A stretch of 64,000 nucleotides of DNA, from positions 1 through 64,000 of the forward strand of contig JAAOZI010000020.1 in assembly GCA_011605865.1 (NCBI GenBank), read 5' to 3'. Each line of letters begins with the position of its first letter. Position 1 is the stretch's first letter. The position numbers were made by a program, and so were the translations under genes. The notes beneath the pieces were generated by a model, which was given only the letters and a program-made list of their open reading frames with translations, ran no database searches and was not told the DNA's origin. This document shows positions 31,005 to 53,615 of this stretch, one piece after another. This stretch comes from Archaeoglobales archaeon (GTDB lineage: Archaea; Halobacteriota; Archaeoglobi; Archaeoglobales; Archaeoglobaceae).

Positions 31005-31005
31005 T

Positions 31006-31950: not shown

Positions 31951-32351
31951 TCTTTCCACCTCAGCTTTTCCTGTTCACCAAGATTCTCAACAACATTCTT
32001 GAAAGCAGCCATTTCTTCAGCAAACTTTTTTCCTTCCGATGCAGATGCCCAGAGAAGTTTCAGGCGCTCGTCTTCAAAACCTATAAAGTTCAAAAGTTCT
32101 TTGAGCAATATGTATCTCTTCTTCGCATAGTAATTTCCCACCATGTAATGGCAGTCTCCAGGATGACAGCCTGCAATAACCACTCCGTCGGCTCCCTGTC
32201 TAAAGGCTCTAAGAATCCATGCAGGGTTCACCATACCCGAGCACATTACTCTAATTATCTTCACGTCTTCCGGATACTTCAGCCTGCTAACCCCGGCCAA
32301 ATCGGCTCCAGCATAACTACACCAATTGCACGCAAACACAACTATCTTCAT
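31947..32351 (-). CDS. flxD: MvhD / FlxD-like 2Fe-2S subunit
   Basis: 134-residue hydrogenase-delta type protein. VFACNWCSYAGADLAGVSRLKYP near the N-terminus, VMCSGMVNP and AGCHPGDCHY carry the five Cys of the MvhD 2Fe-2S site. In hydrogenase-Hdr complexes MvhD brings electrons to HdrA. Here no MvhA/G hydrogenase subunits are present, so the electrons come through Flx proteins instead. It overlaps hdrA and flxC by four bases. Confidence 0.9.
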   Translation of the reverse strand: MKIVVFACNWCSYAGADLAGVSRLKYPEDVKIIRVMCSGMVNPAWILRAFRQGADGVVIAGCHPGDCHYMVGNYYAKKRYILLKELLNFIGFEDERLKLLWASASEGKKFAEEMAAFKNVVENLGEQEKLRWKE

Positions 32352-35329: not shown

Positions 35330-36153
35330 TTCACCACCCTAATAGTAAGTTCATCTTCTCCAAGTATTTCGACTAAACCCCTCCTTCTCATCTCAACAAT
35401 TGTGGAGACAATTTCACTCTTCTCCATTCCAGATTTTTCAGCGATTTCCGAGACTTTTGCCTCTTTATCGACGCTTTTCAAAATCTTCGCCATATTTATT
35501 GCAGTTTCTATTGCATCAGAAAGAATTCGTTCGTATTTTTCGGTGCTGATTTTTTCCCCATAAACGTTTCCAACCTCTGTTATGGTTCTCATCTTTGACA
35601 CTAATGCTCTAACGTTTCTATCTCTAGCAACGGCCTTTAAAAGTTCGGCTTTTTCTGAGCTTACAGGTCCAAAATTCCTAGCTTCTTCGTTGAAAGCTAT
35701 TCGCTCTTTTTCAAGTCCCAACTTACTAAGGGCTATTTGCATTGCCTTTATCTTGCTTCTTGCCTCAAATGCTCCCGGGCTGTTTCTACAATCATTTTCG
35801 CAGCTCAAAACGGCTACACTTCCATGCCTAGCTATCGCCTCTGCCAAATGAATCATGTCCAATCTCGAAATACAAAGCAATGTCACCCCCTCCTTGCTCT
35901 TCCTCCTGCATGAGATAAGATTGGCAGTGCTGATTTCCTCAATTATTGCTTCATCTCTGAATTTCGTTGCAAACATCGAAATGGCACTCGTAATACAACT
36001 TCCTGCACAGAGTCCGCAAACTTTGCATGTCCCAGTTACTTGCGGATAACCATTAACCATCTCAATTGCTTTATGCGGGCAAAGCGAAACACATATGCCG
36101 CAACTCAGACATTTTTTATAATCTATTATTATAGTCCTCTTCTGATCTTGCAT
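35326..36153 (-). CDS. ferredoxin-domain protein with C-terminal winged helix, first gene of the Hdr/Flx operon
   Basis: 275 residues. Two 4Fe-4S motifs lie at the N-terminus (CLSCGICVSLCPHKAIE; CKVCGLCAGSCITSAI). A middle domain follows (LISCRRKSKEGVTLLCISRLDM; VAVLSCENDCR), vaguely like a degenerate hydrogenase-delta (MvhD) domain. The last 60 residues look like a helix-turn-helix (KVSEIAEKSGMEKSEIVSTIVEMRRRGLVEI). It could be an extra electron carrier, a redox-sensing regulator or both. Its ATG is about 25 nt from a TATA box, with no ribosome site, so the operon mRNA may be leaderless. The stop overlaps the hdrA start. Confidence 0.7.
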   Translation of the reverse strand: MQDQKRTIIIDYKKCLSCGICVSLCPHKAIEMVNGYPQVTGTCKVCGLCAGSCITSAISMFATKFRDEAIIEEISTANLISCRRKSKEGVTLLCISRLDMIHLAEAIARHGSVAVLSCENDCRNSPGAFEARSKIKAMQIALSKLGLEKERIAFNEEARNFGPVSSEKAELLKAVARDRNVRALVSKMRTITEVGNVYGEKISTEKYERILSDAIETAINMAKILKSVDKEAKVSEIAEKSGMEKSEIVSTIVEMRRRGLVEILGEDELTIRVVK

Positions 36154-36173
36154 GAATCGGAAAATGCGTCTGG

Positions 36174-36182
36174 CTTATAAAA
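36174..36182. promoter_or_regulatory. TATA box between the Hdr/Flx and amine-dehydrogenase-type operons
   Basis: CTTATAAAA at 36174-36182 lies 25 nt from the leftward ATG (36153) and about 80 nt from the rightward ATG (36257). It can serve the leftward operon as a leaderless promoter, and may also start a rightward transcript near 36203 with a leader of about 50 nt. Confidence 0.45.
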
Positions 36183-36256
36183 CTTTGGGATTTAGACAAT
36201 TTCCAAACCGCGAAAAACTAATATCAATCAATTCAATTGTGCGGAAGGGATCTTTG

Positions 36257-37843
36257 ATGGTGAAAGTCGTAGATGGGAGATTGGTCGAACATCCTATATT
36301 AAAGTTCAACCGTGGCAAAGAGGTTACAATTTATTTCAACGGAAAACCCATAAAGGCCTACGAAGGAGAAACTGTAGCTGCAGCTTTATATGCAAGCGGT
36401 GTTAGAATATTCAGCAGGTCTTTTCGATGGCATAGGCCAAGGGGCTTTTTCTGCGCGATTGGAAAGTGCTCAGCATGCATGATGGAAGTAGACGGAATTC
36501 CCAACGTCAGAACCTGCAAAGTATACGTTCGCGACGGGATGCAGATTAAAACGCAGAGCGGTTTTCCGAATGCCGAAAAAGACTTTTTCGGTGTGATGGA
36601 CAAATTAATAGATAGAATTTTCCCGCACGGTAGTCAATACACGAAATTCAACAACAAAATTTTCCGTGAAATGCTTATTTCGCGTCTAAGAAGCTTCGCA
36701 GGTTTCGGAAACGCTCCAAAAGTCGAATTTAGCGGAAATGCCGATTACGAGGAAATAGAGTGCGACGTCTTGGTCATCGGAGGAGGTCCCGCGGGAATGA
36801 GTGCCGCAATAAACGCTGGAAAGTACGGAGCAAAGGTTTTGCTTATCGATGAAAATCCAAACCTTGGAGGGCAGCTCGTGAAACAAACGCATCGCTTTTT
36901 TGGCTCAGCAAAACACAGAGCTGGAACGAGGGGTATAAAGATTGCAAAGATTCTGGAAGAAGAACTCAGAAAAATTCCGAATGTTGATATAAGACTCGAA
37001 ACAAAAGCTTTTGGAATATATGGAAAGATTGTTGGAGCAGTTGAAAAAAGCAAGCTCCTGAGAATAATTCCAAAAAAAATCGTGGTTGTAACTGGAGCCT
37101 ACGAAAGAACGTTGATCTTTGAGAATAACGACCTGCCAGGCGTTTATGGAGCTGGCGGTGTGCAAACTTTGATGAATGTATATGGGATAAAACCGGGAAA
37201 TAGAGGATTAATTGTCGGTTCCGGCAATGTTGGGCTAATTCTAAGCTACCAGCTTCTTCAGGCTGGAGTTGAAGTAGCCGCCATAGTCGAGGCGATGCCA
37301 AGAATCGGTGGTTATTTCGTCCATGCTGCCAAGGTTAGAAGGTTGGGAGTGCCGATATACGTCAGACACACAATAATAAGAGCTATAGGAAAAGACCATG
37401 TTCGAGGTGCGGTAATTGCGCAACTCGATGACAAATGGAGACCAATTCCCGGAAGTGAAAAGAAAATCGATTGCGACTTCATATGCGTTGCAGTAGGTCT
37501 TTCTCCGACGCATGAATTGCTATACCAAGCCGGATGCAAAATGAAGTTCGTTCCAGAACTAGGAGGGCTTGTACCTCTGAGGACAAAATTCAATGAAACC
37601 AGCGTTGAGGGAATTTATGTTGCAGGAGATGTTGCCGGTATAGAGGAGGCAACATCCGCAATTATGAACGGTAGAATAGCCGGAATACATGCTGTAATAG
37701 CTCTTGGGCTTGGTGGTGAAATGGCAAAAAAGGAGCTCAAAGAATCACTAAGAGACTTGGAAGAATTCCGAGCTGGACCTTTTGGAGAGAGGATAATTTG
37801 TGGAATTGAGAAATGCATCCTAGCAAAGGAGGTGGAGATATGA
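36257..37843 (+). CDS. 2Fe-2S/FAD dehydrogenase alpha subunit (sarcosine oxidase alpha / HcnAB / proline dehydrogenase-like)
   Basis: 528 residues. An N-terminal ferredoxin fold of about 100 residues has CAIGKCSACMMEVDGIPNVRTC, like HcnA. An FAD/NAD(P)-disulfide-oxidoreductase-like part follows (CDVLVIGGGPAGMSAAINAG; GGQLVKQTHRFFGS; GIYVAGDVAGIEEATSAI), like HcnB. Such alpha subunits work with a DAO-type beta subunit in sarcosine, opine, D-amino acid or dye-linked proline dehydrogenases. The track start adds 35 unlikely residues. GGAAGGGAT lies before ATG 36257. It is the first gene of a four-gene operon whose other members are an extra ferredoxin, BFD and beta subunit. Confidence 0.82.
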   Translation: MVKVVDGRLVEHPILKFNRGKEVTIYFNGKPIKAYEGETVAAALYASGVRIFSRSFRWHRPRGFFCAIGKCSACMMEVDGIPNVRTCKVYVRDGMQIKTQSGFPNAEKDFFGVMDKLIDRIFPHGSQYTKFNNKIFREMLISRLRSFAGFGNAPKVEFSGNADYEEIECDVLVIGGGPAGMSAAINAGKYGAKVLLIDENPNLGGQLVKQTHRFFGSAKHRAGTRGIKIAKILEEELRKIPNVDIRLETKAFGIYGKIVGAVEKSKLLRIIPKKIVVVTGAYERTLIFENNDLPGVYGAGGVQTLMNVYGIKPGNRGLIVGSGNVGLILSYQLLQAGVEVAAIVEAMPRIGGYFVHAAKVRRLGVPIYVRHTIIRAIGKDHVRGAVIAQLDDKWRPIPGSEKKIDCDFICVAVGLSPTHELLYQAGCKMKFVPELGGLVPLRTKFNETSVEGIYVAGDVAGIEEATSAIMNGRIAGIHAVIALGLGGEMAKKELKESLRDLEEFRAGPFGERIICGIEKCILAKEVEI

Positions 37844-38325
37844 AGTACCTCGAAAGAGGATATGCAGAGTTAGATGAACTCCCTCCATTCCCAAGTGAGG
37901 AAAGGTTGAAAAAGAAGCCAGTAGCATACATAGAGTGCCCGCAGCCAATTCCATGCAGTCCTTGCTATGAAGCTTGCCCTGCAAATGCAATAAAGATGGA
38001 AAATATAAACGATCCGCCTGTGGTTAACTACGAAAAATGCACTGGTTGCATGAACTGCATCAGAGTCTGCCCCGGACTTGCAATATTCATGCTAAGGCTA
38101 CGGGAAGATGGAAAAGGAGAAGTGACATTGCAGTACGAGTTGCTTCCGTGGCTTAAAAAGGGAGACAAAGTGGAGCTTTTGAACAGAAAAGGAGAAGTTG
38201 TAGGTATAGGAATAGTCAATTGGGTCCTACCACCAGAAAGAAATGACCAAACCTCACTAGTTAGGGTAGAGATGGATACAAAGCTGATATATGAAGTTAG
38301 AGCCGTAAGAAAGGTGAAAGAATGA
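37840..38325 (+). CDS. dicluster ferredoxin-like subunit of the dehydrogenase complex
   Basis: 161 residues. Two 4Fe-4S motifs are visible in the first 80 residues: CPQPIPCSPCYEACPANAI and CTGCMNCIRVCPGLAI. The C-terminal half (VELLNRKGEVVGIGIVNWVL; LVRVEMDTKLIYEVRAVR) is beta-rich and unassigned. GGAGGTGG precedes ATG 37840, which overlaps the upstream stop. It probably takes electrons from the flavoprotein to a cellular acceptor, comparable to the small subunits of archaeal dye-linked proline dehydrogenases. Confidence 0.8.
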   Translation: MKYLERGYAELDELPPFPSEERLKKKPVAYIECPQPIPCSPCYEACPANAIKMENINDPPVVNYEKCTGCMNCIRVCPGLAIFMLRLREDGKGEVTLQYELLPWLKKGDKVELLNRKGEVVGIGIVNWVLPPERNDQTSLVRVEMDTKLIYEVRAVRKVKE

Positions 38326-38588
38326 GAAAAGTCGTTTGCAGATGTGAAGATCTGACTGAGGAGGAGATAATACACGCAATTGAGCTCGGCTACGATGATA
38401 TTGAAAGTTTAAAGCGCTACACAGGGGCAACTACTGGTCCATGTCAAGGAAAAGGTTGCCTAATGCACATATTGAGAATTCTGAGTCAAAAAACTGGCAA
38501 AAGTATCGATGAGCTAGGTATAACCACCCAAAGACCGCCAGTTAACCCAGTTCCGCTCTATATCCTCGCGAGCAGTGAGGAAAAATGA
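38322..38588 (+). CDS. BFD-like 2Fe-2S protein
   Basis: 88 residues with the bacterioferritin-associated-ferredoxin pattern: VCRCEDLTEEEIIHAIELG, then TGPCQGKGCLMHI, giving the C-x-C and C-x4-C ligand pairs for a 2Fe-2S cluster. In related enzymes this domain is fused to the alpha subunit; here it is a separate gene. ATGA overlaps at both ends show translational coupling with its neighbours. Confidence 0.88.
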   Translation: MRKVVCRCEDLTEEEIIHAIELGYDDIESLKRYTGATTGPCQGKGCLMHILRILSQKTGKSIDELGITTQRPPVNPVPLYILASSEEK

Positions 38589-39616
38589 GAGTGGCAATCA
38601 TCGGCGCCGGGATAGCTGGACTCGCAACTGCATACTTTCTAGCCAAAGAAGGAATTAAAGTTGAAGTCTTTGAACAAAAATTTTTACTCCACGGGGCAAG
38701 TGGAAGAAACTCGGGGGGTATAACCGCGCAATTCGACGATGAAGAACTTATAAAATTGGCAATTAGGAATGAAAAACTCTACGATAAACTTCAGTCAGAA
38801 ATAGGGTTCAATTTTCTACTCAGAAAAGATGGATATTTGAAGCTCGCAAACAGCATCGAAGAGCTTGGCAGGATAGAACTGCAAAGGAAATTTGGATTAA
38901 AAGTAAAAATTATGGAAGCCGAAGAGGTTAGGAATATCTTCGAGGACATAAATACTGAAGCTTTTAAATTTGCAAGCTTTTATCCGAAAGGGGCCATTGT
39001 TTTTCCTTGGGCTGTAATCTGGGGACTTGCAAAGGGGTGCAAAGATCTGGGTGTTAAAATCTATGATTTCACGAAAGTTGAAATTGTTGCAGAAGATGGA
39101 AAAGTCAAAGGAGTTAAATCTGGTGAATTTCATGAAGCAGACGTCGTTGTGAATGCCGCAGGTGCTTGGAGTAAAGAGATCAACGATAAACTTGGGATAA
39201 AAGAAGAGAAAAGGATTATCAGAGAGGAGATATGTGTTACGGAGAGCATAAAGCCCTACATCGATCCATACATTCTCCACGCATCCGAAGGTCTTTTCTT
39301 AAGTCAATCCATGCGCGGTGAGATAGTCGGAGGTATTGTCGGAAAATCAGATGGCGGAATGACGAGCAGCCTAGATTTCCTTATACGTTACGCAAAACTA
39401 GTAACTCGGCTTGTTCCAAAGCTCAAAGGTCTTGCAGTTTTAAGACAATGGGCCGGAATTTACGACGAGACACTAGATGGAAAACCAAAAATGTGTTTTT
39501 CTGAAATAAAAGGACTTTATCAGCTCAATGGATTCGGACGAAAAGGTATGAGCATAGGCCTCGCCTGTGCGGAAATTGCCTCAAAAGAAATATTAAAATT
39601 CACTCAAGAGGAATAA
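38585..39616 (+). CDS. FAD-dependent oxidoreductase, DAO family (beta subunit)
   Basis: 343 residues of the D-amino-acid oxidase / sarcosine oxidase beta / HcnC family. VAIIGAGIAGLATAYFLAKEG is the FAD-binding N-terminus. LLHGASGRNSGGITAQFDDEEL is typical of the family, and VVNAAGAWSKEIND and QLNGFGRKGMSIGLACAEIAS near the end complete the FAD site. It should oxidise the amine or imino-acid substrate (sarcosine, proline, opine-like), which the sequence does not specify. It is the last gene of the operon and convergent with hsp20, overlapping by 17 nt. Confidence 0.85.
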   Translation: MRVAIIGAGIAGLATAYFLAKEGIKVEVFEQKFLLHGASGRNSGGITAQFDDEELIKLAIRNEKLYDKLQSEIGFNFLLRKDGYLKLANSIEELGRIELQRKFGLKVKIMEAEEVRNIFEDINTEAFKFASFYPKGAIVFPWAVIWGLAKGCKDLGVKIYDFTKVEIVAEDGKVKGVKSGEFHEADVVVNAAGAWSKEINDKLGIKEEKRIIREEICVTESIKPYIDPYILHASEGLFLSQSMRGEIVGGIVGKSDGGMTSSLDFLIRYAKLVTRLVPKLKGLAVLRQWAGIYDETLDGKPKMCFSEIKGLYQLNGFGRKGMSIGLACAEIASKEILKFTQEE

Positions 39617-40372: not shown

Positions 40373-40423
40373 CTAAAAGTGATAATAACTTTTGAAGATT
40401 TTAGTTGGTTTGGAGGTGGGGAA

Positions 40424-41902
40424 ATGACAAAAGTTGAAGAAATCGAAATAAAGGATCCAAAAGACGTATTGAGACCCAGACCGTGGCCAGTTACACCACC
40501 CGCAACTAGAGAGGAGGCAAAAGAGATATATAAGAAAAGGGGTCCTGAAGCTGTAGATTTTGTTGTATGGTTGGAGGATATTCTTGGATACGAGAAGAGA
40601 TTCACAAAGCCAGAGGCTTTAACGGGAATCAGAGTTTTAGATGTAGGTATTTGGAGACTCGGTAATGCTTTCTGTTCTTCTCTTTTAGCCGAGCTTGGAG
40701 CTGAGGTTATAAAAATTGAGCCACCCACGGGAGATCCGCTTAGGTACTTAACACCATTTGGAAGAGAGGAATACATGCTAAGAGATAATGTAAAAGGAGA
40801 GCTCTGCGGTCTTGAGTTCATAAATGAAATGAGAAACAAATACTCGGTAACTCTAAACCTCGAACATCCAGAAGGAAGAGAGTTGTTCAAAAAACTAATA
40901 CCACAAGTTGATGTCGTCATTGAGAACTATCCACCCGGTTACTTCGACCAGCTTGGAATAGGTTACAGACAGCTTTCAAAGATCAATCCACGCTTGATAT
41001 ACTGCTGGATAGGGATTCTGGGTCAGTGGGGACCAATGAAGGATAGAGTCTCGAAATTTGGACAGTGGATGCTTGAGCCGTTTGGACAGGCAGCCTGTTC
41101 ATTCATTCACAACACGGGCTATCCACAGGATTTCCTTCCAAGAGGTTCTGGAGGAGATCCGACGAGGTCCGCTGCTTGGATTGCAGACTATGCTGCAGGC
41201 GAGCAAGCAGCTGTTAACATCCTAGCTGCTCTTTGGTACAGAGAGGAGGTAAGCGGAAGAGGGCAGTTCATCGAAGTGACTGCAGCTGAAGCGCTGATGG
41301 ATATTCTGGACTTCGACATTGCGTGGTACGCCTTTAACAGGAGCATAAAAGCAAGAACTGGTGCCTGGGATCCGAATCTTAACCAATACGCCTGGAATCC
41401 CTGTAAGGATGGATATATGATGATCGGTGGCCAGACGGACAGGCTGTGGTACAGAATAGGAATGTGCATTTCAAGAGACTTCCCACAGTTCGAGAGGCTG
41501 ATTAGCGAGGATCCGTTGCTCAAGGAGATGGCAGCGAGAAACGCCTTAGAGGCTCTGATAAAAACATATACGCTAACAACAATGTGGCTGAGGAACATTA
41601 CAAGGGATGTGGCTGAGGAGAAACTGATGGACTATGAAATTGCTGCCGGTCCCGTGATGTACCTCGATGAGGTTGCCGAGTACTACCACTTCAAGTATAG
41701 AAAATTCGTGGATGTCATAGAAGACGAATACTACGGCCCAATTCTGCACTGCGCACCTCCGCTTGCTTATCAGCACAGAACACCAGCAAGAGTTAAATGG
41801 ATGGGAAGGCCGTTGGGAATAGACAATGAGCACATATACGCGAAATATCTCGGAATCGGTCCAACTCAACTTAGGGAACTAAAAGAAAAGGGAATTATAT
41901 GA
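40424..41902 (+). CDS. family III CoA-transferase (CaiB/BaiF), first paralogue
   Basis: 492 residues, against about 400 for typical members. The extra length is mainly an N-terminal extension of about 65 residues ([21 protein letters not shown]). GIRVLDVG...[21 protein letters not shown] and [21 protein letters not shown] are family hallmarks. The catalytic Asp is in [19 protein letters not shown] near residue 255. It moves CoA between an acyl-CoA and a free acid; the substrate is unknown. GGAGGTGGGG before ATG 40424 sets the start. With the next gene it may form a heterodimer like succinyl-CoA:benzylsuccinate CoA-transferase. Confidence 0.88.
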
Positions 41903-41931
41903 ATTAATTTAAATTTTTAAGAGGTGAGAAG

Positions 41932-43341
41932 ATGCGGGAAAAAGTTAAGCCCGAGATTAAGTTTGAGGAAATACCGGGTCCGGAGGAGTTGGAGCTCGAA
42001 AAAATGCCTTATGAGGAATATTGTAGAAAAATCTTTGATCCGAAAAAGACTTTCGAAAAGCCAGAAGCGCTTAAAGGCATAAGATGGCTAAGTTGCACGA
42101 TGTACATATTCACACCGCACTCGGTTTCGAACCTAGCTGAGCTGGGTGCAGAAGTTATCAAAGTGGAAATGCCAAGAGCCGGGGATCCGATGAGGCACAC
42201 ATCACCGTTTAACGAAGCTTATCTGTATCCGCTACACGACACGAGACCGTTTACTGGAACCGGTTATGGTTACTTCCACGCAAATTTAAATGAATACTAC
42301 ATATCCCTTGATTACCACAGACCGGAAGCGAGGGAGATAGTTTACAACTTGGTTAGAATGTCAGATGGACTAACAGAATGCTACAGACCCGGAACATTCC
42401 ACAGATGGGGAATAGGTTACAAGCAACTATGCGAAATAAACCCCAGGTTTATATATGTCTGGGGAGGCGGTTTTGGCTACGGACCAAAAGTCTTTGGTGG
42501 ATCATACGATATACTGGGCCAGGCCCAAGGTGGGCTTGCGAGCATAACAGGCTTCCATGAAGATTTTGGCGGTCATCCAGTTAAGCACACAAACTGGGTC
42601 ATAGACTGGTATTCTGGAACAATGATAACGGTTGGCGTTCTTGCAGCACTCTACTGGAGAAGAAAAACAGGACTTGGAACTATGATAGAATTCTCCCAGG
42701 TCCACTGCGCTACAAGAGCTTGCGGCTATGGAGTTCCGCTGTACGGGAGATTTGGAATTGTCAGGCAAAGATGGGGTAACTGGGACACCCAGCTTTGCGT
42801 GCACGGAATAATTAGAACTGGAAAGTCTGATTATCCCAACGATCCAAATCCGCAGCTAAGAGAGGAGGCTAAATACGTTATGGTCAGCGCATTCCAAGAT
42901 GAGGATTTCAGAGAACTATGCTACGTGATCGGAAGGCCGGATCTCTGGGAGAAGTACAAGACACACAAAGAGAGATTAAAGCCGGAAGCCCAGATTGAGA
43001 TATATGGAGCACTGGAGCAGTGGGCATCCGATAAGACCAGATCGGAAGTCGTTGACATTCTGACAGATGCAGGCTTGCTTGCGATGCCAGTTATGAACGA
43101 CAAAGAAGTCTATGAGTGCCAGCATTTCAGGGAGAGGGGTACGATAAGGTGGATTGAGGATCCCATATTCGGAGACGTTCTCGTACACGGCGGATTCTCG
43201 GTCGGCCTACTCTCAGAAACACCGAGGAGGGTCAGATGGGTATGGAGGCCAGTGGGGGCTGATAACGTAAGAGTGTACCATGAACTGCTTGGATACCCAA
43301 TAAGCCAGATAAAGGAGTGGTATGATAAAGGAATTATATAA
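41932..43341 (+). CDS. family III CoA-transferase (CaiB/BaiF), second paralogue
   Basis: 469 residues, again with an N-terminal extension. [36 protein letters not shown] and [30 protein letters not shown] mark the family. The catalytic-type Asp is kept in [22 protein letters not shown] near residue 225, so both paralogues look active. AGAGGTGAG lies before ATG 41932, 29 nt after the preceding gene. Its TAA overlaps the ATG of the following zinc-ribbon gene, which points to co-expression of the whole cluster. Confidence 0.88.
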
Positions 43342-43826
43342 TGGGGGTGATGGATTTGACCGAAATCATATGGTGTAAACATTGCAATACCGTCAATTAT
43401 TTGGACCCCTATACTTTTTGGAACTGGAAAGGGAAAGTAAAGTGCGCTGGTTGCGATCGAGTGTATTACGTGCACATAATCCAAGGCTTTTACTATGAAG
43501 GCCCAAAGGAGATGCCACCCGGGGAGCCATACGATATTATGCCGCTCTATGCGGATAAACCGCTAGAAGGTTATGAGAGCTACAAACCGGGAACGCCTGG
43601 CAGAACGAGACCCTATCTCTGCTTGCCAAGGGAGATATATCTAGGAAAAGCTGACAAGGTGAAGTTCAGTATAAGAGGGAGACCTGTAAGAGGTTGGGCA
43701 CCGCAGCCTCCATCCTCTGGCTTAGCCGGTTCGCAAGGATTTAAGTGGGATATTGAAAAGCTTTCGCCTGACGTCTGGAAAGAGTATCAAGTGAAACTTA
43801 GGAAAGGGGAAGTTAGGGAGTGGTGA
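43341..43826 (+). CDS. zinc-ribbon protein of the CoA-transferase cluster
   Basis: 161 residues, not a family I can name. The N-terminus holds two CxxC knuckles, WCKHCNTV and CAGCDRVYYV about 18 residues apart, a zinc-ribbon or rubredoxin-like site. The remainder is rich in Pro, Gly, Tyr and Trp (YEGPKEMPPGEPYDIMPLYADKPLEGYESYKPGTPGR) with little regular structure expected. ATG 43341 overlaps the upstream stop; ATG 43350 is an alternative. It may be a structural or electron-transfer partner of the CoA-transferases or of an enzyme encoded elsewhere. Confidence 0.6.
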   Translation: MGVMDLTEIIWCKHCNTVNYLDPYTFWNWKGKVKCAGCDRVYYVHIIQGFYYEGPKEMPPGEPYDIMPLYADKPLEGYESYKPGTPGRTRPYLCLPREIYLGKADKVKFSIRGRPVRGWAPQPPSSGLAGSQGFKWDIEKLSPDVWKEYQVKLRKGEVREW

Positions 43827-43828
43827 GT

Positions 43829-44062
43829 ATGGTCGAGAAGAAGCTAACTCCTGAAGAATTCAGGCTAAAGATCCTCGAACCGGCTAAAAAAACAGACCAC
43901 ATTTGCTGGACTTGCAAACACCTTAAGCCTGTTATAAAGGGTTCAAAGCTGCCTCCGGCAGACCTAATCGGCTGGTGCAAGAAACTCCACTGGCCATTCT
44001 ATTGGTGCATACCTGAAAACTTAGTTGTTAAGAAGTGCATCGGCTATGAGAGAATCGGTTGA
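43829..44062 (+). CDS. small Cys-rich protein, possible Fe-S binding
   Basis: 77 residues. Cys are in HICWTCKHLKP, GWCKKLHWPFYWC and VVKKCIGYE, so the spacing is C-x2-C, C, C, C. Aromatic residues surround the Cys. This resembles the small HiPIP-like Fe-S subunits of glycyl radical enzymes (such as BssB/BssC of benzylsuccinate synthase) in size and layout, but no glycyl radical enzyme is in the window and the similarity is by eye only. ATG 43829 is chosen over the track's 43820. It overlaps the next gene. Confidence 0.55.
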   Translation: MVEKKLTPEEFRLKILEPAKKTDHICWTCKHLKPVIKGSKLPPADLIGWCKKLHWPFYWCIPENLVVKKCIGYERIG

Positions 44063-44300
44063 AAAGGAACTGGAGGTCCTGAAGAAAATGGTTTCTGCAT
44101 GGAGAAAGTTCTACGAAGAGACACCTTATCCAGGGTGTGAAAGAGATTTTAGCTTTGAAATCGAGGAATACCTCCTTCCCTATTTGAGGAGACTATACGA
44201 ATGTGGATACATAAATGATTCCCAAATTAATTTTTTATCGTTTTGTTATGAACAAATCGAAGAGCTTTGCAGAAATATAGGCAAAAAGTTGGAGGTGTGA
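44046..44300 (+). CDS. uncharacterised small helical protein
   Basis: 84 residues from ATG 44046 (MRESVEKELEVLKKMVSAWRKF). Mostly helical and acidic, with Cys in PGCERDFSF, RLYECGYI, SFCYEQI and LCRNIG. No recognised family. It overlaps the preceding gene by 17 nt and ends two bases before the next ATG, so it is clearly part of the operon. The track's longer start lacks a ribosome site, as does this one, and coupling to the upstream gene may suffice. Confidence 0.5.
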   Translation: MRESVEKELEVLKKMVSAWRKFYEETPYPGCERDFSFEIEEYLLPYLRRLYECGYINDSQINFLSFCYEQIEELCRNIGKKLEV

Positions 44301-44302
44301 AA

Positions 44303-44737
44303 ATGCCCGCAAAATGCCGTGTAGTCGTTTGCGGTTTCGATCCCATGCTGGTTAGGGGTTATGTAAAAACTGGTGCTAGAGCTCTCTGGTGGCATCTCCC
44401 AGACGAAATTTACGAAGAATTCCAAGTCAAACCCGGCGACGCAGTTATCGGCACTCTGCATGCAGTTTATAATCAGAAAGGCGAAAAAGTTGCCGAACCC
44501 AACGAGAAATTTAAATGGTCAACTGCTAAAGAATCAGGTCTTACAGTGGTGTTGCCACCCGAAGTCATAACCAAGTATCGACTGACTGCATGGCATTTCT
44601 TGGAAATGAGTATCGAGGCTATAGAAAAAGGAAGGAAAGTTGTTGAAGTCTATCCCGGAAAAGAGGTTAGATCGAGCAAGTGGTGGCCAGAAAATAAGAT
44701 GAAATTCCACTTCTACCTAGAATACATACCACTCTAG
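44303..44737 (+). CDS. uncharacterised protein of the CoA-transferase cluster
   Basis: 144 residues, no family recognised. GGAGGTG at 44290-44296 fixes ATG 44303, so the 12 extra residues of the track ORF are rejected. Two segments, DEIYEEFQVKPGDAVIGTLHAVY and VVLPPEVITKYRLTAWHFLEMSIEAI, have the rhythm of AbrB/swapped-hairpin beta folds, which is only an impression. Many Trp residues (ALWWHLP; SSKWWPENKMKF) are unusual for a DNA-binding AbrB protein. It may be a ligand-binding or regulatory partner of the enzymes upstream. Confidence 0.5.
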   Translation: MPAKCRVVVCGFDPMLVRGYVKTGARALWWHLPDEIYEEFQVKPGDAVIGTLHAVYNQKGEKVAEPNEKFKWSTAKESGLTVVLPPEVITKYRLTAWHFLEMSIEAIEKGRKVVEVYPGKEVRSSKWWPENKMKFHFYLEYIPL

Positions 44738-44744
44738 TGAGAAA

Positions 44745-45848
44745 ATGGGCTGGTGTTCTCTGTTTGAAGTTTCCAATTCTTTTTTTAGAAAACTGCTTTT
44801 TCTAGAGGGTTTTTATTCCTCTTCAAATTCCTATATTATTTTGGGAGATATTTTGACAATAATAGATCCCGGAAACGACTACACAGCTCTTTTAGACCTT
44901 CTTGAACTAGGATTCAAGCCATCAGACATCAAAAGAGTTATCATAACCCACGGCGAGTATGACCATTCGATGGGTATATTTGAACTCATGAACTACCGAA
45001 GCGCAAGAGATTTGGAAGTCATCATGCACGAAATGGGGCCAGCAACGCTTAAAGAGACTGTCGAGAGAAGAGGTGGTAAAATTGTAGAAGTAAGGGGTGG
45101 AGAAACTCTGAAATTGGGTGATTGCGAACTCAAAGTTTTTCACACACCCGGGCACACGATAGATAGCATATGCCTGTATCACGAGGAGACGCATACACTT
45201 TTCAGCGGGGATACAGTAATACCAGGTTCGGTAGCGGCACCGAACCCGGCTGCAATGGGTAACATCAGAGATTATATCTTATCTTTAAGATTTCTAAGAA
45301 GAATTCCTGTCAAAGCGTTACTGCCAGGCCATGGTGCACCAGTAATTGGCAACTGCAAAGAGTTCATAGAGAGAACGTATGAGGAATTAATTAAAAGCAT
45401 AACTGGAGAAATAGAGTTAAGTGAGGCTGCAGAGATTCTCCTAAGGCATGGATACATCGAAGAGGCAATTTTCTGTTGTGACAAAGGGATTAAAGCAAAT
45501 TCGGAAGATAGGAGTCTACTAAAACTAAAAGCTGTATGTCTAAACAGTCTTGGAAGATTTGAAGAGACTTTGGAAATTCTAAATGAGCTTCTAAAAGAGC
45601 GAAAAGATGCCTATACACTTACAATCAAGGGATACGCATTGATGGGGCTAGGAGAATATGAGAAAAGTATAGAATGTTTTGATGAAGCGCTTAGAATAAA
45701 TCCAAATATGGTAGAGGCAAAAATTTACAAAGGCATTGCTTTTATGCTTTTAGGGAGAGTGGAAGAGGCCATGAAAATACAGGAATTCAAAAATGAATAC
45801 ATTAGAATATTTGAAGGAGAAGTCAAAAAGTTAAAGAGTTCGAGGTGA
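44745..45848 (+). CDS. metallo-beta-lactamase-fold protein with TPR repeats
   Basis: 367 residues. Residues 1-205 form an MBL domain: VIITHGEYDHSMG, VFHTPGHTIDSICLY, LFSGDTV and LLPGHGAPV. The first motif is HxExDH rather than the usual HxHxDH. Glu at this position is found in diiron flavodiiron-type proteins. Residues about 225-350 are TPR-like helices (AAEILLRHGYIEEAIFCCDKGI; ALMGLGEYEKSIECFDEALRINPN). No flavodoxin domain is present. It follows the CoA-transferase cluster by 8 nt. Thioester hydrolysis and redox or O2 sensing are both conceivable. Confidence 0.75.
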   Translation: MGWCSLFEVSNSFFRKLLFLEGFYSSSNSYIILGDILTIIDPGNDYTALLDLLELGFKPSDIKRVIITHGEYDHSMGIFELMNYRSARDLEVIMHEMGPATLKETVERRGGKIVEVRGGETLKLGDCELKVFHTPGHTIDSICLYHEETHTLFSGDTVIPGSVAAPNPAAMGNIRDYILSLRFLRRIPVKALLPGHGAPVIGNCKEFIERTYEELIKSITGEIELSEAAEILLRHGYIEEAIFCCDKGIKANSEDRSLLKLKAVCLNSLGRFEETLEILNELLKERKDAYTLTIKGYALMGLGEYEKSIECFDEALRINPNMVEAKIYKGIAFMLLGRVEEAMKIQEFKNEYIRIFEGEVKKLKSSR

Positions 45849-45852: not shown

Positions 45853-46194
45853 ATGAATTTCGAAGGTATCGTCGAAGGTTACGAACTAAAATTTAAAGCG
45901 AGCGAAGTTGAAATAGGAAAAGGATACGGAATCTTCTTGCTTTTCATAGAGATGCCAAATGTCAAGCATCATGGCTTCTTTATCGAGAAGGATGGTCTAA
46001 AAATAGCTAAAGGTGTCATAGCCAAATATGTAAGAGATATGAACATTGAGACTCTCGAGGTGGTAGCACCACCTCCGCCAGATTCCAATGCAGTTTTAAT
46101 GGTGAGAATTGGAGGAGAGGAGTTTGAAAGAGTCCTAAAAAGAATAGCAAAACACATCTGCGATTTTCTAAAATCTCAGCAATTCATTAAATGA
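45853..46194 (+). CDS. uncharacterised 113-residue protein
   Basis: Not recognised. An alternating alpha/beta pattern with VVAPPPPDSNAVLMVRIGGEEFERVLKRIAKHICDFLKS at the C-terminus; no Cys motif or membrane segment. GAGGTGAT just before ATG 45853 is a strong ribosome site, and the gap to the MBL-TPR gene is 4 nt, so it is probably the last gene of the operon. The end is followed by AT-rich DNA. Confidence 0.5.
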   Translation: MNFEGIVEGYELKFKASEVEIGKGYGIFLLFIEMPNVKHHGFFIEKDGLKIAKGVIAKYVRDMNIETLEVVAPPPPDSNAVLMVRIGGEEFERVLKRIAKHICDFLKSQQFIK

Positions 46195-46234: not shown

Positions 46235-46609
46235 TTAAATTATCATCGAGGTCGGTGGTATATGCTTGAACTTTATCTCATTATTCTCGATGTAGATTCC
46301 GTAGCTTTCCATTATATTTAATCCTATAATCGCATCTACCGCTAAATCCTTGATAACTCCAACAGTCTCCTCCTCGGGCAAAACATAGCCCTCAATCTCC
46401 AAGAAAACAGCTGTCCTTCCGATAACATTAGCAAATTTCCCCTTCACAGCTAAGGGAACTTTCTTTGGCTCCTTATAAGGCTCGTAGCCAACCTTCTCTG
46501 CGAGCTCTTTGCCGATATAGCTCCTTCTCGATCCGGTATCGAATAAAGCTAGGGCCTCTACAGCTTTACCATTTTTATGCACTTTGATCCTTTTTTCAAC
46601 CTTAACCAT
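46235..46609 (-). CDS. retropepsin-like aspartyl protease domain protein
   Basis: 124 residues consisting of a single pepsin/retropepsin-type lobe. ALFDTGSRRSYIGKELAEKVG holds the catalytic D-T-G-S near residue 24. VDAIIGLNIMESYGIYI near 95-110 is the typical hydrophobic-hydrophobic-Gly element. VPLAVKGKFANVIGRTAVFLEI would be the flap strands. It should dimerise to form an active site. No signal peptide. It is a single gene between the CoA-transferase operon and an IS fragment; its substrate is unknown. Confidence 0.75.
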   Translation of the reverse strand: MVKVEKRIKVHKNGKAVEALALFDTGSRRSYIGKELAEKVGYEPYKEPKKVPLAVKGKFANVIGRTAVFLEIEGYVLPEEETVGVIKDLAVDAIIGLNIMESYGIYIENNEIKFKHIPPTSMII

Positions 46610-48047: not shown

Positions 48048-49733
48048 ATGGTATCGTTAAAAGATTTAGAGAAAAAGATAGAGAAATACTTGCCACCAAA
48101 AGAACTCTGGCCAGAGTTCAAGATACCAAAAGACTTCTATGAGAGTCTACCCCAAAATCTAAACTTGGCGGAGGAAATTCTTGAAAAAACTGCAGAAAAA
48201 AGAAAGCACAAGGTTGCCATTTACTTCGAAGATCAGAAATACACCTATAGAGAGCTTTCAGAACTCTCAAACAAGCTAGCTTCTGCACTTACGGAACTGG
48301 GCGTAAAGCCGCTAGATAGAGTGGCAATTCGCTTCTCTAACATTCCAGAAGCCGTGATCTCGAACTTCGGCATACTGAAGACTGGAGCTCTACCCGTAAC
48401 TTTACATCCAAGATGGAGCAAAAAGGAAGTTCTTCACGTTCTTAACGATAGTGGGGCTAAACTGTTGATCACAGAGAAAGATCTGCTAAAGGAGGTCAAC
48501 GAGGTAAAGTCCGAGCTGAAGTATCTTCAAAACGTTATTGTGGTTGGCGATGGAGAGGGATACCTCAGTTTCGGGGAATTAATTAAAAAGGGAAGCAGAA
48601 AATTTGAACCGGTAGAGGTTCCTAAAGACTCTCCTGGAGTTCTGCTTTATACCTCCGGAACTACAGGTCCTCCAAAAGGAGTTGTCCACTTTATACCCGG
48701 CATACTGACTGTAGTGAGAAATGTAGGAAACTACGTCTGGAAGCTTACGGATGAGGATGTCTTTGGAAGCGCGGCGCCGATTACATTTGCCCTAGGCTAT
48801 GGAGGACTGGCACTAATTCCATACTACTTTGGAAGTGCAGTCTCTCTTATGAGACAGCCAGCGCCAGATTACGTTTTCTCCATGATAGAGAAGCACGGAG
48901 TAACTGTTATGAGCATGGCTCCTACTTGGTACAGAAAGACATTACCTGTACTGGATAAATTATTGCAAAAGTACGACACAAGCACGGTTAGATTGTTCAC
49001 AGGAGGAGGGGAAGCTTTCGGAGCCGATGCAATCAAGGCTTGGTATGAGAAAACTGGGAAGATGATTGCAGAGGGCTTTGGAGCAACAGAGCTTTTCTAC
49101 ATTTCAATATCTAATGCTGTAGCCCCCAAACCAAAACCCGGCTCAATTGGTATGCCTGTACCTGGCGTGGAGGTCAACATAGTTGATCCGGAGAACTTCC
49201 AGCCAATAACGGAGCCTAGAAAGGAAGGATTAATGTTAATAAAAGCACCTTGTGGAACGGTTTATTGGAATCCGTATGCTGAGGATAACAAGTTGCTGAA
49301 GAAAATGAAAAAGGATGTTTTGATGAAGAGTGTGGCCTTAGGAGATCTAGCATACAAAGATGAAGAAGGTTACATATGGTTTGCAGGGAAGGGAGAAGAC
49401 ATAATCAAGAGCTCCGGTTACAGAATTGGAGCGGATGAGATCGAAGTGACTCTTATGGGCCATCCAGCGGTTGATGATGCCGGCGTTGTAGGGGTTCCAC
49501 ATCCCGTGAGGGGAGAAGACGTTGTAGCATTTGTAGTGCTAAAGAAGGGCTATGAAGCAAGTGAAAAGACTAAGAAAGAAATCTACGAATACCTCCAAGC
49601 TAACCTTGCAAAGTACAAGTTGCCAAGAGAGATATTCTTTGTGGAGAGTCTACCCAGACATCTAACTGGCAAGTTGCTGAGAAGAGAACTAAAGGAAATT
49701 GCAAAGAAAATGTACACGCCCAAAGGAGATTGA
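48048..49733 (+). CDS. AMP-forming acyl-CoA synthetase
   Basis: 561-residue member of the ANL superfamily that activates a carboxylic acid with ATP and CoA. LLYTSGTTGPPKGVVH is the P-loop near 205, EGFGATELFYISISN near 340 the adenylate-binding A5 motif, LGDLAYKDEEGYIWFAGKGEDIIKSSGYRIGADEIE the A7-A8 hinge, and LPRHLTGKLLRREL has the A10 catalytic Lys. The N-terminus (FKIPKDFYESLPQNLNLAEEILEKTAE) resembles medium-chain and aryl-CoA synthetases. Substrate unknown. Genes for CoA transfer and Liv/OFA transport nearby suggest an imported organic acid. It is convergent with livF. Confidence 0.9.
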   Translation: MVSLKDLEKKIEKYLPPKELWPEFKIPKDFYESLPQNLNLAEEILEKTAEKRKHKVAIYFEDQKYTYRELSELSNKLASALTELGVKPLDRVAIRFSNIPEAVISNFGILKTGALPVTLHPRWSKKEVLHVLNDSGAKLLITEKDLLKEVNEVKSELKYLQNVIVVGDGEGYLSFGELIKKGSRKFEPVEVPKDSPGVLLYTSGTTGPPKGVVHFIPGILTVVRNVGNYVWKLTDEDVFGSAAPITFALGYGGLALIPYYFGSAVSLMRQPAPDYVFSMIEKHGVTVMSMAPTWYRKTLPVLDKLLQKYDTSTVRLFTGGGEAFGADAIKAWYEKTGKMIAEGFGATELFYISISNAVAPKPKPGSIGMPVPGVEVNIVDPENFQPITEPRKEGLMLIKAPCGTVYWNPYAEDNKLLKKMKKDVLMKSVALGDLAYKDEEGYIWFAGKGEDIIKSSGYRIGADEIEVTLMGHPAVDDAGVVGVPHPVRGEDVVAFVVLKKGYEASEKTKKEIYEYLQANLAKYKLPREIFFVESLPRHLTGKLLRRELKEIAKKMYTPKGD

Positions 49734-50396
49734 TCAAATAAAAAATTTTTTCAAAATTTTTTCCCCACCCTCTTTTTCTCCTGCGTATAGAAGTTTCCCA
49801 TTTGTGAGAACACAGATGTAATCGCTCATTGAAAAAATCTTCTCCAGCTCGTCGTGCGTGACAACCAGAATTCCCCTTTTTCTTCCCTCCTCTTCTAGCA
49901 ATTTAATTATTCTTTCCTTTATCTTTTCATGCAAACCTTGAAACGGTTCGTCGAGTAGCAAATATTTCGAATTTTTTGCAAAAGCTCTTGCCAGAATTAC
50001 CATTTGTCTTTCTCCACCGCTCAGATCCCTAGCTTTTTTCTCAGAAATCTTTTTTAGTTCTGGAAAGTATTCATATGCTCTATTCCTATCGCAAAATCTT
50101 AAGTTCTCGTCAACCGTGAGAGACAAGGGCAATTTCATCCTCTCAGGGGCCATTATGATTCCTAATTTTACTCTTTCATGTGCCTTTTTCATAGTTATGT
50201 CAAGGCCATCTAGTAATATTTTCCCGGAACTCGGTCTAAGCAGTCCGGCAAGAATTTTGAGCAAAGTCGTCTTCCCGCTACCATTTGGGCCTGCTATAAG
50301 ATTTATTCCCCGATCGAAGCACAGATTTACCGAATCAAGTATTTTTTTCGAGTTCATGGTTAGAGATATCTCAACTGCTTCCAACAATTTTACCAC
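49734..50396 (-). CDS. livF: branched-chain-amino-acid-type ABC transporter ATPase LivF
   Basis: 220 residues. Walker A AGPNGSGKTTLLKIL near 37, signature LSGGERQMVILARAF near 125, Walker B YLLLDEPFQGLHEK near 148, switch His in VVTHDELE. Gene order LivK-H-M-G-F fits. The start is a GTG at 50396, with AAGGGGTGG upstream and the preceding gene overlapping by 26 nt. The final bases form a T-rich stretch shared with the end of the convergent synthetase gene, possibly a two-way terminator. Confidence 0.88.
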   Translation of the reverse strand: MVKLLEAVEISLTMNSKKILDSVNLCFDRGINLIAGPNGSGKTTLLKILAGLLRPSSGKILLDGLDITMKKAHERVKLGIIMAPERMKLPLSLTVDENLRFCDRNRAYEYFPELKKISEKKARDLSGGERQMVILARAFAKNSKYLLLDEPFQGLHEKIKERIIKLLEEEGRKRGILVVTHDELEKIFSMSDYICVLTNGKLLYAGEKEGGEKILKKFFI

Positions 50397-50991
50397 CCCT
50401 TATCTCAAGCATCTGTGATGCGATGGTTTTCAGTATCTTAGTTCTGTGTGCCGTGATTATCATGGAAATTTCACTTCCCCTCTTCTTGAGAAACTCAAGA
50501 ACAACCTCCACATTTTCAGCGTCAAGCGATGCGAAAGGTTCGTCGAGTAGCGCTAGTTTAGGCTTCAATGCAAAACACATCGCAAGCTGCAACAACTTTA
50601 CCTTTCCCTGTGATATTTCTTTCGCTTTTTTGAAGAGGACATCTTCTAGATTTAATTCTTTGCAGATCTCAGCCGTATAGTCTGTTTCTCTTGCTGCTAA
50701 AAGAACATTCTCGTGAACTGTTAGATTCCAAAAAACTCTCGGTATTTGGAATGCCATTGCAACGCCGAGTTTGACTATCTCCTGCGGAGCTTTATTAGTT
50801 ATCTCCCTCCCGTTAAAAAATACCCTTCCACAACTGGGTTTTTCAAATCCTGAAATTATCTTAAGCAGAGTTGTTTTGCCGCTTCCATTGGCACCGTAAA
50901 TTCCGAGTATTCCATTTTTCAAGCTAAATGTTACATTCTTCAAAACAACATTTCTGCCAAACATTTTAGACACTTCTATCACTTCTAGCAT
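50371..50991 (-). CDS. livG: ABC transporter ATPase LivG
   Basis: 206 residues, shorter than the usual 250. Walker A YGANGSGKTTLLKIISG near 34. AFQIPRVFWNLTVHENVLLA and the signature-like ISQGKVKLLQLAMCFA follow, where Q-G replaces the G-G of LSGGQ. Walker B is KLALLDEPFASLDAEN and the switch is ITAHRTKIL. The shortened loop and altered signature suggest a divergent subfamily, but the catalytic residues remain. It overlaps both neighbours. Confidence 0.85.
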   Translation of the reverse strand: MLEVIEVSKMFGRNVVLKNVTFSLKNGILGIYGANGSGKTTLLKIISGFEKPSCGRVFFNGREITNKAPQEIVKLGVAMAFQIPRVFWNLTVHENVLLAARETDYTAEICKELNLEDVLFKKAKEISQGKVKLLQLAMCFALKPKLALLDEPFASLDAENVEVVLEFLKKRGSEISMIITAHRTKILKTIASQMLEIRGGKIVGSS

Positions 50992-51808
50992 AACTCTGAG
51001 TATATGAAGCTAAAATCAAGGCTACTGCATAAATTGCATAATGAAACTCTGGCACATAGGGTGAAAGGAACCAAGAAAGAAAAACTACCGTGTAGCTTCC
51101 TAGAATACTCGACCAAATTTTCCCTTGTCCAATGGTTGCTGCAACAAATGGAAACAGAGAAAAATAGGGGGAAAATACACCGGGCGATACGTGGCCGAAA
51201 ATTGCCGCATGTAAGATCCCCGCAATAGATGCCAGGCTACATGAAATCGCGAATCCGAATACTTTGAACGGTAGGGAATTTATGCCTATAGCTTTTGCTG
51301 CGATTTCGTCATCTCTCACGGCTTTTACTTTCAAACCAAAATATGAATTTGAAATTTTCCAGATTAGCAGACACGACAAGATTAGAATTGTCACAGAAAT
51401 GAGATAAATTAGATCCAAGTTTATCGAGGGAGCTCTAAATCCTTCCTCACCACCTTTACCTTCAAAAACAATGTGGTGCGCCAAATACCATAAGAATACT
51501 GAAAAAACAAAACTTGCAAATGGAAAGGTATGCTTCCCAAAAATTGATAACGGAAACAATAGAAAAGTTGTAAGGGGGGAGAAGAAAAGAAGTAGGGGAT
51601 TAATTGCAAATAGGTATGCAGAGACACCGAAAGGTATTGAATGACCAAGGCTTGCCCAGCCCAAATCTTTTTCCAAATATAACCAAGATACAGTAAAAAT
51701 TGCCAGAGTTAAAGCAGAAGCTGCTAGCAGTTTTGTATAGCAATCTAAGAATACTGGTAAGATTAGTAACACCAGTACTAGAATCCGGATTGCTATACTA
51801 ACCAACAT
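50966..51808 (-). CDS. livM: ABC transporter permease LivM
   Basis: 280 residues with about eight hydrophobic segments, starting with IAIRILVLVLLILPVFLDCYT. The family EAA-like region GLKVKAVRDDEIAAKAIGINSLPFKVFGFAISCSLASIAGILHA is clear in the second half, and PYFSLFPFVAATIGQGKIWSSILGSYTVVFLSWF follows. It overlaps livG and livH. With LivH it forms the channel for the solute bound by LivK. Confidence 0.87.
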   Translation of the reverse strand: MLVSIAIRILVLVLLILPVFLDCYTKLLAASALTLAIFTVSWLYLEKDLGWASLGHSIPFGVSAYLFAINPLLLFFSPLTTFLLFPLSIFGKHTFPFASFVFSVFLWYLAHHIVFEGKGGEEGFRAPSINLDLIYLISVTILILSCLLIWKISNSYFGLKVKAVRDDEIAAKAIGINSLPFKVFGFAISCSLASIAGILHAAIFGHVSPGVFSPYFSLFPFVAATIGQGKIWSSILGSYTVVFLSWFLSPYVPEFHYAIYAVALILASYTQSYARSDRSV

Positions 51809-52482
51809 ACTCCGAAAGAGGTCGGTAAAAGTAGGATATAAGCTTTCTCTCTAAAAACGTTTGCAATTGTTGCTATGAAGAGTGAAAAGATCATGTAGAG
51901 CCAGCCAATTGTTGGGCTTATTACTCTTCCAGAAAGATACAGGCCCCCTATACTGCAGAAAAAAGCTGAAGAAATGACTAAAACAATAGCCCTAGCCTTT
52001 TCCGCATCAATTCCATATAACTCCGCATTTTCTATATCCTCCTCAATAACTTTCAGTTTTAACCTGCTGAAGGGTTTTTTTAGTTCAAATGCCAGAAATA
52101 GAATTAAAAAGGTTGCTGAAATCATAGAGGCCAAAAAGTGTTCAAAAACTAATTTATAACCAAAAAAATAGAATATCCTTGAATCCAGTAAAATGTTTTC
52201 AACTCTAAACAAGATTCTTAAAGCTTCTTCTATTGCTATTGCAATACCGAGAGAAAATATGGTTGCTTTACTCGCATCCATTCTTTTTGAACCGATATGT
52301 AACAAAAGACCAATCCAAGCGCCAAATATCGGTGTGATAAATAGGCTGAATACTGAAAGATATCCACCCAGTGTAAAAATTGAGCCAAACGATAAATTCA
52401 CAACTTTTGCAACTCTGTAGGAAAGTAGCACGCAAAGAGCGAGCGATGCATAAATTAGCGCCGAAAAAAATAATGAAATCAT
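51793..52482 (-). CDS. livH: ABC transporter permease LivH
   Basis: 229 residues, strongly hydrophobic, somewhat shorter than typical LivH (about 290). LALCVLLSYRVAKVVNLSFGSIFTLGGYLSVF near the start and the coupling region KLKVIEEDIENAELYGIDAEKARAIVLVISSAFFCSIGGLYLSG are characteristic. It lies between livK and livM with 4- and 16-nt overlaps. The partner order supports one transporter. Confidence 0.85.
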   Translation of the reverse strand: MISLFFSALIYASLALCVLLSYRVAKVVNLSFGSIFTLGGYLSVFSLFITPIFGAWIGLLLHIGSKRMDASKATIFSLGIAIAIEEALRILFRVENILLDSRIFYFFGYKLVFEHFLASMISATFLILFLAFELKKPFSRLKLKVIEEDIENAELYGIDAEKARAIVLVISSAFFCSIGGLYLSGRVISPTIGWLYMIFSLFIATIANVFREKAYILLLPTSFGVCWLV

Positions 52483-53615
52483 GAAACGACCTGTATTTTA
52501 CCTTCTCTATATATTCCTATAGTTCCCTGTAGCTTTTCGCTACCCCATTTAGCCTGATGATTTTCATCGAACTCATAAACTCCGGCAGCTCCGATGAAAG
52601 TTCCCCTTTCTAGGTTAGATATCAAGTCTCCCCCCCTTGCAGCTGCTTGCGTCACTATAAGGATAGCATCGTACGTTAAGATCCCTGCATAGTTGTTGGC
52701 CTCCGTTCCATAATACTTCCTATAGTCTTCGAAGTATTTCTTTGTTAAATTCGTTTTTGCTTTCACCTCTAGTGCTGCGGCCTGGAAAGCTATTCCACTA
52801 ATATTTAATTTCGCTAGAATATCCGGTAAGGCAAGCGTTCCACCGACAGAATATATAGTCGCATTTCCTCCTGCTAATCTGTACTCTCTCACAAAATCAA
52901 CACTACCCAAACCCGGATCACCAACAATGATAACTTCTACATCCTTTTTTGCTACTTCCTGCGCAACTCGTTTGTAATCCTCAGGAGAAACAGTTGGAGA
53001 TTTTACCCAAGATTCACCTCTGAACTCTGCTTTGGTTGAGTTCTTTATAAGACTGAACATTCCCAAGTTAAAGGTCTTCAAAGGCTCATACCCAATTAGA
53101 TAGTAGCTTTTTGCTTTTGTTTTTTCAAGAAATTCGATAGCCAAAATTCCCCAATAGCTTGTGTTGTACGCGTTTCTGAAAACGTATTTGTTTCCAGTTT
53201 TTACTTTGCTTTCAAGATCGGCTGAAGCTACACTCGCAACAAATACAACTTTGGATTCATTTGCGGTATCTGCTGCTGTCATCGCTTGCGGGCTTGAATA
53301 AGTACCCACTATTGCTGTTACACCCTCCCTTACAAGGCTTAAAAATGCAGTTTTTGTGGTTTCCGGTTTATCACCGCAATCGTATATAATGACTTTTACA
53401 TTATACCCCATCTCTTTTGCGTGTTTTTCGGCCAACTTTGCAGCATTTTCCATAACTAAGCCTGCAGAGGAGAATTCACCGGTTTTTGGGACTAGAACTC
53501 CAATCTTTATCTCAGGCATTTGGGGTTGCGGCGTTGGAGTTTGAGGAGGAGTTGCGCAGAACAATAGAAAAACTATGAGTCCCACAATCAGTCCAGCCTT
53601 TAGCTTTCCTATCAT
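52479..53615 (-). CDS. livK: Liv-type substrate-binding lipoprotein
   Basis: 378 residues. An N-terminal hydrophobic segment ending in LLFCATPP reads as a lipoprotein signal with Cys near residue 20, followed by a Pro/Thr-rich linker. The periplasmic-binding fold type I follows: EIKIGVLVPKTGEFSSAGLVMENAAKLA, AIVGTYSSPQAMTAADTANESKVVFV and NNYAGILTYDAILIVTQAAARGG. Such proteins bind branched-chain amino acids, amides or aromatic acids. Context points to an organic acid. GAGGAGGGG lies just before ATG 53615; the upstream promoter abuts IS-derived DNA. Confidence 0.87.
   Translation of the reverse strand: MIGKLKAGLIVGLIVFLLFCATPPQTPTPQPQMPEIKIGVLVPKTGEFSSAGLVMENAAKLAEKHAKEMGYNVKVIIYDCGDKPETTKTAFLSLVREGVTAIVGTYSSPQAMTAADTANESKVVFVASVASADLESKVKTGNKYVFRNAYNTSYWGILAIEFLEKTKAKSYYLIGYEPLKTFNLGMFSLIKNSTKAEFRGESWVKSPTVSPEDYKRVAQEVAKKDVEVIIVGDPGLGSVDFVREYRLAGGNATIYSVGGTLALPDILAKLNISGIAFQAAALEVKAKTNLTKKYFEDYRKYYGTEANNYAGILTYDAILIVTQAAARGGDLISNLERGTFIGAAGVYEFDENHQAKWGSEKLQGTIGIYREGKIQVVS

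Follow-up and report, generated by a model that had tools for sequence, protein, structure and literature searches.

A metallo-β-lactamase–TPR protein with an HxExDH motif encoded in a conserved CoA-transferase operon of an Archaeoglobales archaeon

Results

The seven-gene operon

The stretch of DNA analysed (64,000 nucleotides from an Archaeoglobales archaeon, here termed the window) carries at 40379-45848 seven genes in the order CoA-transferase 1, CoA-transferase 2, zinc-ribbon protein, Cys-rich protein, f5, f2 and, last, a metallo-β-lactamase (MBL) protein with tetratricopeptide repeats (TPRs), all on the + strand. The first two genes encode type III CoA-transferases, i.e. CoA-transferase 1, of the CaiB/BaiF type (40379..41902 by open reading frame bounds, with the start ATG used in searches at 40418; PF02515, 3.4e-74), and CoA-transferase 2 (41932..43341), which matches both chains of benzylsuccinate CoA-transferase (9fn0); the pair has matches to benzylsuccinate, formyl- and succinate-hydroxymethylglutarate CoA-transferases. 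They are followed by a conserved zinc-ribbon-like protein of 161 residues (43341..43826) and a conserved Cys-rich protein of 80 residues (43820..44062; CxxCK...PPADLxGxCK..HWPFYWC), in which the stretch PPADLxGxCKxxHWPFYWC is near-invariant and which may bind a metal or an Fe-S cluster. Neither the Cys-rich nor the zinc-ribbon protein had a match in profile searches of the PDB up to E = 1, and the suspicion that they resemble the small subunit of a glycyl-radical enzyme found no support there. The conserved proteins f5 (91 residues, 44025..44300) and f2 (144 residues, 44303..44737) complete the set upstream of the MBL-TPR gene. For f2, which adjoins the MBL-TPR gene in most loci, a confident and mostly β structure was predicted, the fold search with which returned only a weak match to PHS018 of P. 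horikoshii (E 0.019) and no known family. Several members of the operon are without a Pfam match.

Immediately downstream lies f3 (113 residues, 45853..46194, +), a conserved protein present in archaeal versions of the cluster, and further on are an AMP-forming acyl-CoA ligase (48048..49733, +) and a Liv-type ABC transporter comprising two ATPases, two permeases and a binding protein (49734..53615, -). Such genes recur near the module in other lineages: the ligase at L108, L109, L120 and L125 (Chloroflexota, Desulfovirgula, an acidobacterium and an Archaeoglobus MAG), Liv-type transporter genes at L105, L108 and L109, and an α/β hydrolase, also encoded in the window, at L108, L112 and L120. 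The setting suggests a pathway for the uptake and activation of a carboxylic acid.

Further loci were found by scanning genome contigs with an alignment of the Cys-rich neighbour. The operon loci so assembled are the window, L105-L121 and L123-L131, some of which lie on cut contigs that show part of the operon only. The gene order of the window is common to Ammonifex, Desulfovirgula thermocuniculi, several Deltaproteobacteria and Syntrophobacterales, Methylomirabilota, an acidobacterium, Chloroflexota and Aquificota, and is seen in part in a Thermoplasmata MAG; archaeal relatives include Archaeoglobus, Geoglobus and Ferroglobus. An earlier note, made from the DNA alone, had placed the MBL-TPR gene in an operon of an anaerobe, and the operon is indeed common to anaerobic bacteria and archaea. 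In archaea f3 joins the cluster, which in most Archaeoglobaceae is partly rearranged. A full-length MBL-TPR is encoded in 12 of 55 Archaeoglobaceae-level genomes, that of the window included, and f2 occurs in 12 of the 394 genomes of the phylum, which are the same Archaeoglobaceae.

The MBL-TPR protein and its metal motif

The seventh gene (44745..45848, +; exact bounds confirmed) encodes 367 residues, with an MBL domain at about residues 17-200 and a TPR region at about 225-345. Pfam assigns Lactamase_B to residues 26-196 (1.8e-25) and several TPR models to about 233-345 (best 1.6e-14), and in the AlphaFold2 model, which is a confident one (pLDDT 93.3, pTM 0.87), the MBL domain leads into an array of helices. 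The first metal motif reads T68-H69-G70-E71-Y72-D73-H74 (H69-H74, 44949..44966, +), i.e. HxExDH. Thus the open reading frame, the Pfam matches and the position of the motif bear out what had been proposed, an MBL domain with HxExDH fused to TPRs; likewise, TPRs take up the sequence from about residue 225 and no flavodoxin model of Pfam is matched, as had been anticipated.

The remaining motifs of MBL hydrolases of the glyoxalase II/PqsE type, i.e. TPGHT, GDT and PGHG, are present, whereas HxHxDH is absent. The ligands that they contribute are H137 (TPGHT; 45153..45155, +), which is invariant in all orthologs and aligned to a ligand His of flavodiiron proteins (FDPs), the bridging D156 (SGDT; 45210..45212, +) and H196 (PGHG; 45330..45332, +), the last two placed by both the ortholog and the FDP alignments. 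Judged from the sequence, the HxExDH pattern is beyond chance, since it is sited correctly within a full MBL domain. The E71 codon is GAG (44955-44957, +). Either His codon differs from it at two positions, more than a single base-calling error would explain.

Distribution and history of the motif

The ortholog set comprises 26 distinct MBL-TPRs, 14 of them from loci of the Cys-rich scan. HxHxDH is found in 21 of the 26, HxHxEH in four, and HxExDH in one, that of the window; the variant is thus known from one genome, a sample of one. All 11 other MBL-TPRs of the Archaeoglobaceae have HxHxDH, including one from the same genus that is 48% identical and lies in the same operon. The four HxHxEH proteins (L106:11122-12210, L107:11262-12377, L110:11097-12227 and L111:6364-7479) form a single clade (support 98/97), while the window protein is a tip of a mixed bacterial-archaeal clade, the branching order of which is weakly defined; its end branch (0.58) is comparable in length to those of its neighbours (0.41-1.14). 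The metal motif of the family therefore appears to have changed at least twice, each time apparently to another form that bears a carboxylate and may still be capable of metal binding.

Proteins encoded in the same operon, including those of Desulfovirgula thermocuniculi, Ammonifex sp. and Geoglobus and Archaeoglobus MAGs, are homologous over their full length (about 31-48% identity) and have the same neighbours, the same MBL and TPR architecture and mostly the same other ligands. They differ from the window protein in having HxHxDH or HxHxEH, and in that D167 and G171 are unchanged; the segment N167-PAA-M171 (45243..45257, +) has D and G at these two positions in every other ortholog. Of 25 MBL positions that are otherwise invariant, a leave-one-out comparison finds three changed in the window protein (H71E, D167N and G171M) and at most one in each of the other 25 members; in the TPR part of the window protein one of six such positions is changed. 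The pattern indicates remodelling of the MBL domain in the window lineage, and the three changes fit changed function and relaxed catalysis alike. A separate departure is seen in the acidobacterial protein (L120:11536-12672), which has FTDD where others have [ST]GD, i.e. G155D beside the bridging Asp. An Aquificota MAG encodes a second MBL-TPR protein of 326 residues just upstream of the operon (L106:4954-5931).

A search of the 394 genomes of the phylum for T-H-x-E-x-D-H gave, among 50 inspected sites (all those listed for Archaeoglobaceae being included, about a hundred others left out), only one in an MBL, that of the window; the examined HxExDH matches elsewhere in the Archaeoglobaceae are FDPs or non-MBLs. 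Among the inspected sites the pattern is otherwise noise, and the variant is probably real but single.

Comparison with FDPs and ODP-type sensors

A superfamily survey tied the His-to-Glu change to FDPs, with the suggestion that it helps to hold Fe(III), and reported an altered ligand set for ODP (PMC7785958). The iron ligands of the E. coli FDP are His79, Glu81, Asp83, His84, His147, Asp166 and His227 (PMC13133992). In an alignment with FDPs from related genomes (PF19583-scoring, about 386-410 residues), H69, E71, D73, H74, H137, D156 and H196 align in 14 of 14 with H, E, D, H, H, D and H, respectively. The window protein thus shares the full ligand set by alignment, with E71 on the FDP Glu and all seven ligand positions matched, so that the proposal of a Glu at a ligand position, in an FDP-type set, is upheld; the outcome that would have spoken against it, a Glu lying off the ligand position, did not arise. 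FDPs differ, however, in having HWPD/E where the window protein keeps TPGHT, and in their flavodoxin domain, which it does not have.

The overall likeness is to the MBL-TPR family. Using profiles built here, the window protein scores 467 bits against the MBL-TPR orthologs and 51 bits against FDPs; the latter is the highest FDP score within its family, but falls only to 47.9 bits when E71 is masked, such that only about 3 bits are owed to residue 71.

As with ODP-type oxygen sensors, the window protein has an MBL-type domain without a flavodoxin, and it matches the ODP Pfam model above the cut-off (36.9 bits against 27.2). A paralog with HxHxDH in the same genome (a 213-residue frame) scores 57.8 bits against that model, i.e. 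above the window protein, and the match therefore says nothing about iron. Thus the comparison with ODP that had been proposed did yield a match, but an uninformative one, and it was rejected as evidence for a diiron centre. An FDP-sized ODP match is listed for most genomes of the genus and not for that of the window, which proves little given an assembly that is 84% complete. In a further difference from the ODP sensors, no chemotaxis genes, chemoreceptor or signalling partner lie near the window gene, the neighbours of which are instead CoA-transferases, small conserved proteins, a ligase and a transporter. The operon itself encodes no flavodoxin, rubredoxin, chemoreceptor or regulator, and nothing in its context suggests a response to O2 or NO. 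By these comparisons, the window protein does not appear to be an FDP or ODP relative beyond the shared superfamily.

Fold relatives

Matches of the window protein in a Foldseek search of the PDB are led by PqsE, LACTB2 and TTHA1429, not by FDPs; superposed over their whole chains, the structures agree only moderately (TM about 0.45/0.55), owing to differences in the C-terminal part. Like the window protein, PqsE, LACTB2 and TTHA1429 have an MBL domain and then a helical C-terminal part, and PqsE acts on a CoA thioester (2-aminobenzoylacetyl-CoA). They and glyoxalase II differ from it in that their C-terminal helices are not TPRs, and identity is low (about 20%). PqsE, LACTB2, TTHA1429 and glyoxalase II keep the second His of the motif, which in PqsE is HxHxDH. 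PqsE is a thioesterase, the active centre of which binds two irons (PMC9715718). It follows that iron in an MBL domain does not require a Glu.

Discussion

Proposed function of the MBL-TPR family

The best explanation, which we hold tentatively, is that the MBL-TPR family hydrolyses CoA thioesters or related esters in a CoA-transferase operon, and that its metal site has been remodelled in the window lineage. Genomic context and fold are what suggest a thioesterase role. A thioesterase with altered metal use had been offered previously as an alternative to a sensor; of the two it is the better fit to the CoA-transferase operon and to the folds of PqsE and LACTB2, although it stands as a predicted role. 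It is consistent with the match of all the other ligands of the window protein to those of the family and with a context of carboxylate activation, including the acyl-CoA ligase, the Liv transporter and the α/β hydrolase.

Beyond orthology, the ligand alignment and the conservation of the operon, we infer the following. The family enzyme would be a dinuclear-metal hydrolase of the PqsE/glyoxalase II/LACTB2 type, acting on a CoA thioester or related ester that the two CoA-transferases form or load in error; hydrolysis might be, e.g., a proofreading or release step in the pathway, with the TPR tail tethering the MBL enzyme to partner proteins. Two metals are probably still bound at the site in the window protein (four His, two Asp and one Glu), where the extra negative charge of E71 should favour Fe or Mn over Zn and change or lower hydrolytic activity. 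Such a protein would not have to be a sensor or a reductase of O2 or NO.

Alternative readings

The changes at three of 25 otherwise invariant MBL positions, which count against the hydrolase view, as does the moderate whole-chain superposition, also fit loss of catalysis. The window MBL domain may have lost, or be losing, its hydrolase activity and be kept as a scaffold, for the sake of its fold and TPRs, with E71, N167 and M171 reflecting relaxed constraint at the active site. The excess of departures over the maximum of one in the 25 other members, together with a near-normal TPR part, speaks for this reading, but the six other ligand residues and the rest of the operon are intact, the end branch is ordinary in length and Glu is a chemically sensible replacement for a ligand, so that relaxed catalysis, though a serious contender, is somewhat unlikely. 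The Glu codon might instead stem from misassembly or from a chimeric read, the bin being of metagenome type. The 45 contigs and incomplete state of the assembly, and the single known copy of the variant, leave some room for such an artefact; given an open frame, a gene otherwise normal for its family by its profile score, and the two base changes within one codon that would be needed, it is very improbable.

The reading put first in the earlier note was an FDP-like diiron centre without a flavodoxin, in a sensor or scaffold; such a protein would sense O2, NO or redox state or be an electron-coupled scaffold. The match of all seven FDP ligands (PMC13133992), the association of His-to-Glu with FDPs and with Fe(III) (PMC7785958), and the top FDP-profile score of its family, most of which persists with residue 71 masked, make it possible. 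However, the window protein nests among HxHxDH proteins of hydrolase type, a relative from the genus with the same operon has HxHxDH, TPGHT is kept in place of HWPD/E, ODP-profile scores do not discriminate, and the operon offers no redox or signalling partner; kinship with FDPs or ODPs, and a sensor function, are accordingly unsupported, and a diiron sensor is quite improbable.

Distinct from a sensor function is the idea that one His-to-Glu change within an ordinary hydrolase family produced an FDP-like diiron site of four His, two Asp and one Glu, independently of the FDPs and in an undescribed CoA-transferase operon of anaerobes, another clade having changed separately to HxHxEH. We consider this unlikely. 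If the Glu site does hold iron, the window protein and its HxHxDH orthologs, e.g. that of Desulfovirgula, would constitute a natural experiment in which the swap of one ligand converts a hydrolase-type into a redox-type MBL site, a transition that, for the FDPs themselves, is buried in their distant past.

The operon and known CoA-transferase clusters

The conserved operon is probably a more valuable lead than the HxExDH variant. Its seven genes, the order of which is kept across distant anaerobic bacteria and archaea, point to a pathway of carboxylic-acid activation, of which we found no description. Adjacent genes for a pair of type III CoA-transferases, as here, are known from BbsEF (benzylsuccinate CoA-transferase) and from the 'Magic' benzene cluster of ORM2a, which includes an AMP-binding protein too (PMC13101534); the window operon, by contrast, is without MaoC genes. 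In the literature no report was found of BbsEF or the 'Magic' cluster together with the MBL-TPR, zinc-ribbon and Cys-rich set. The operon was not identified with the 'Magic' cluster, the gene content being different and the terms 'lactamase' and 'TPR' being absent from the main text of PMC13101534.

Two other features of the surroundings may be recorded. Upstream of the operon, at 30036-39616, are open reading frames that, read by eye, are heterodisulfide-reductase-like and FAD/Fe-S oxidoreductase-like, and just after the operon, on the opposite strand, is a small open reading frame resembling clan-AA aspartic proteases (46235-46609, -).
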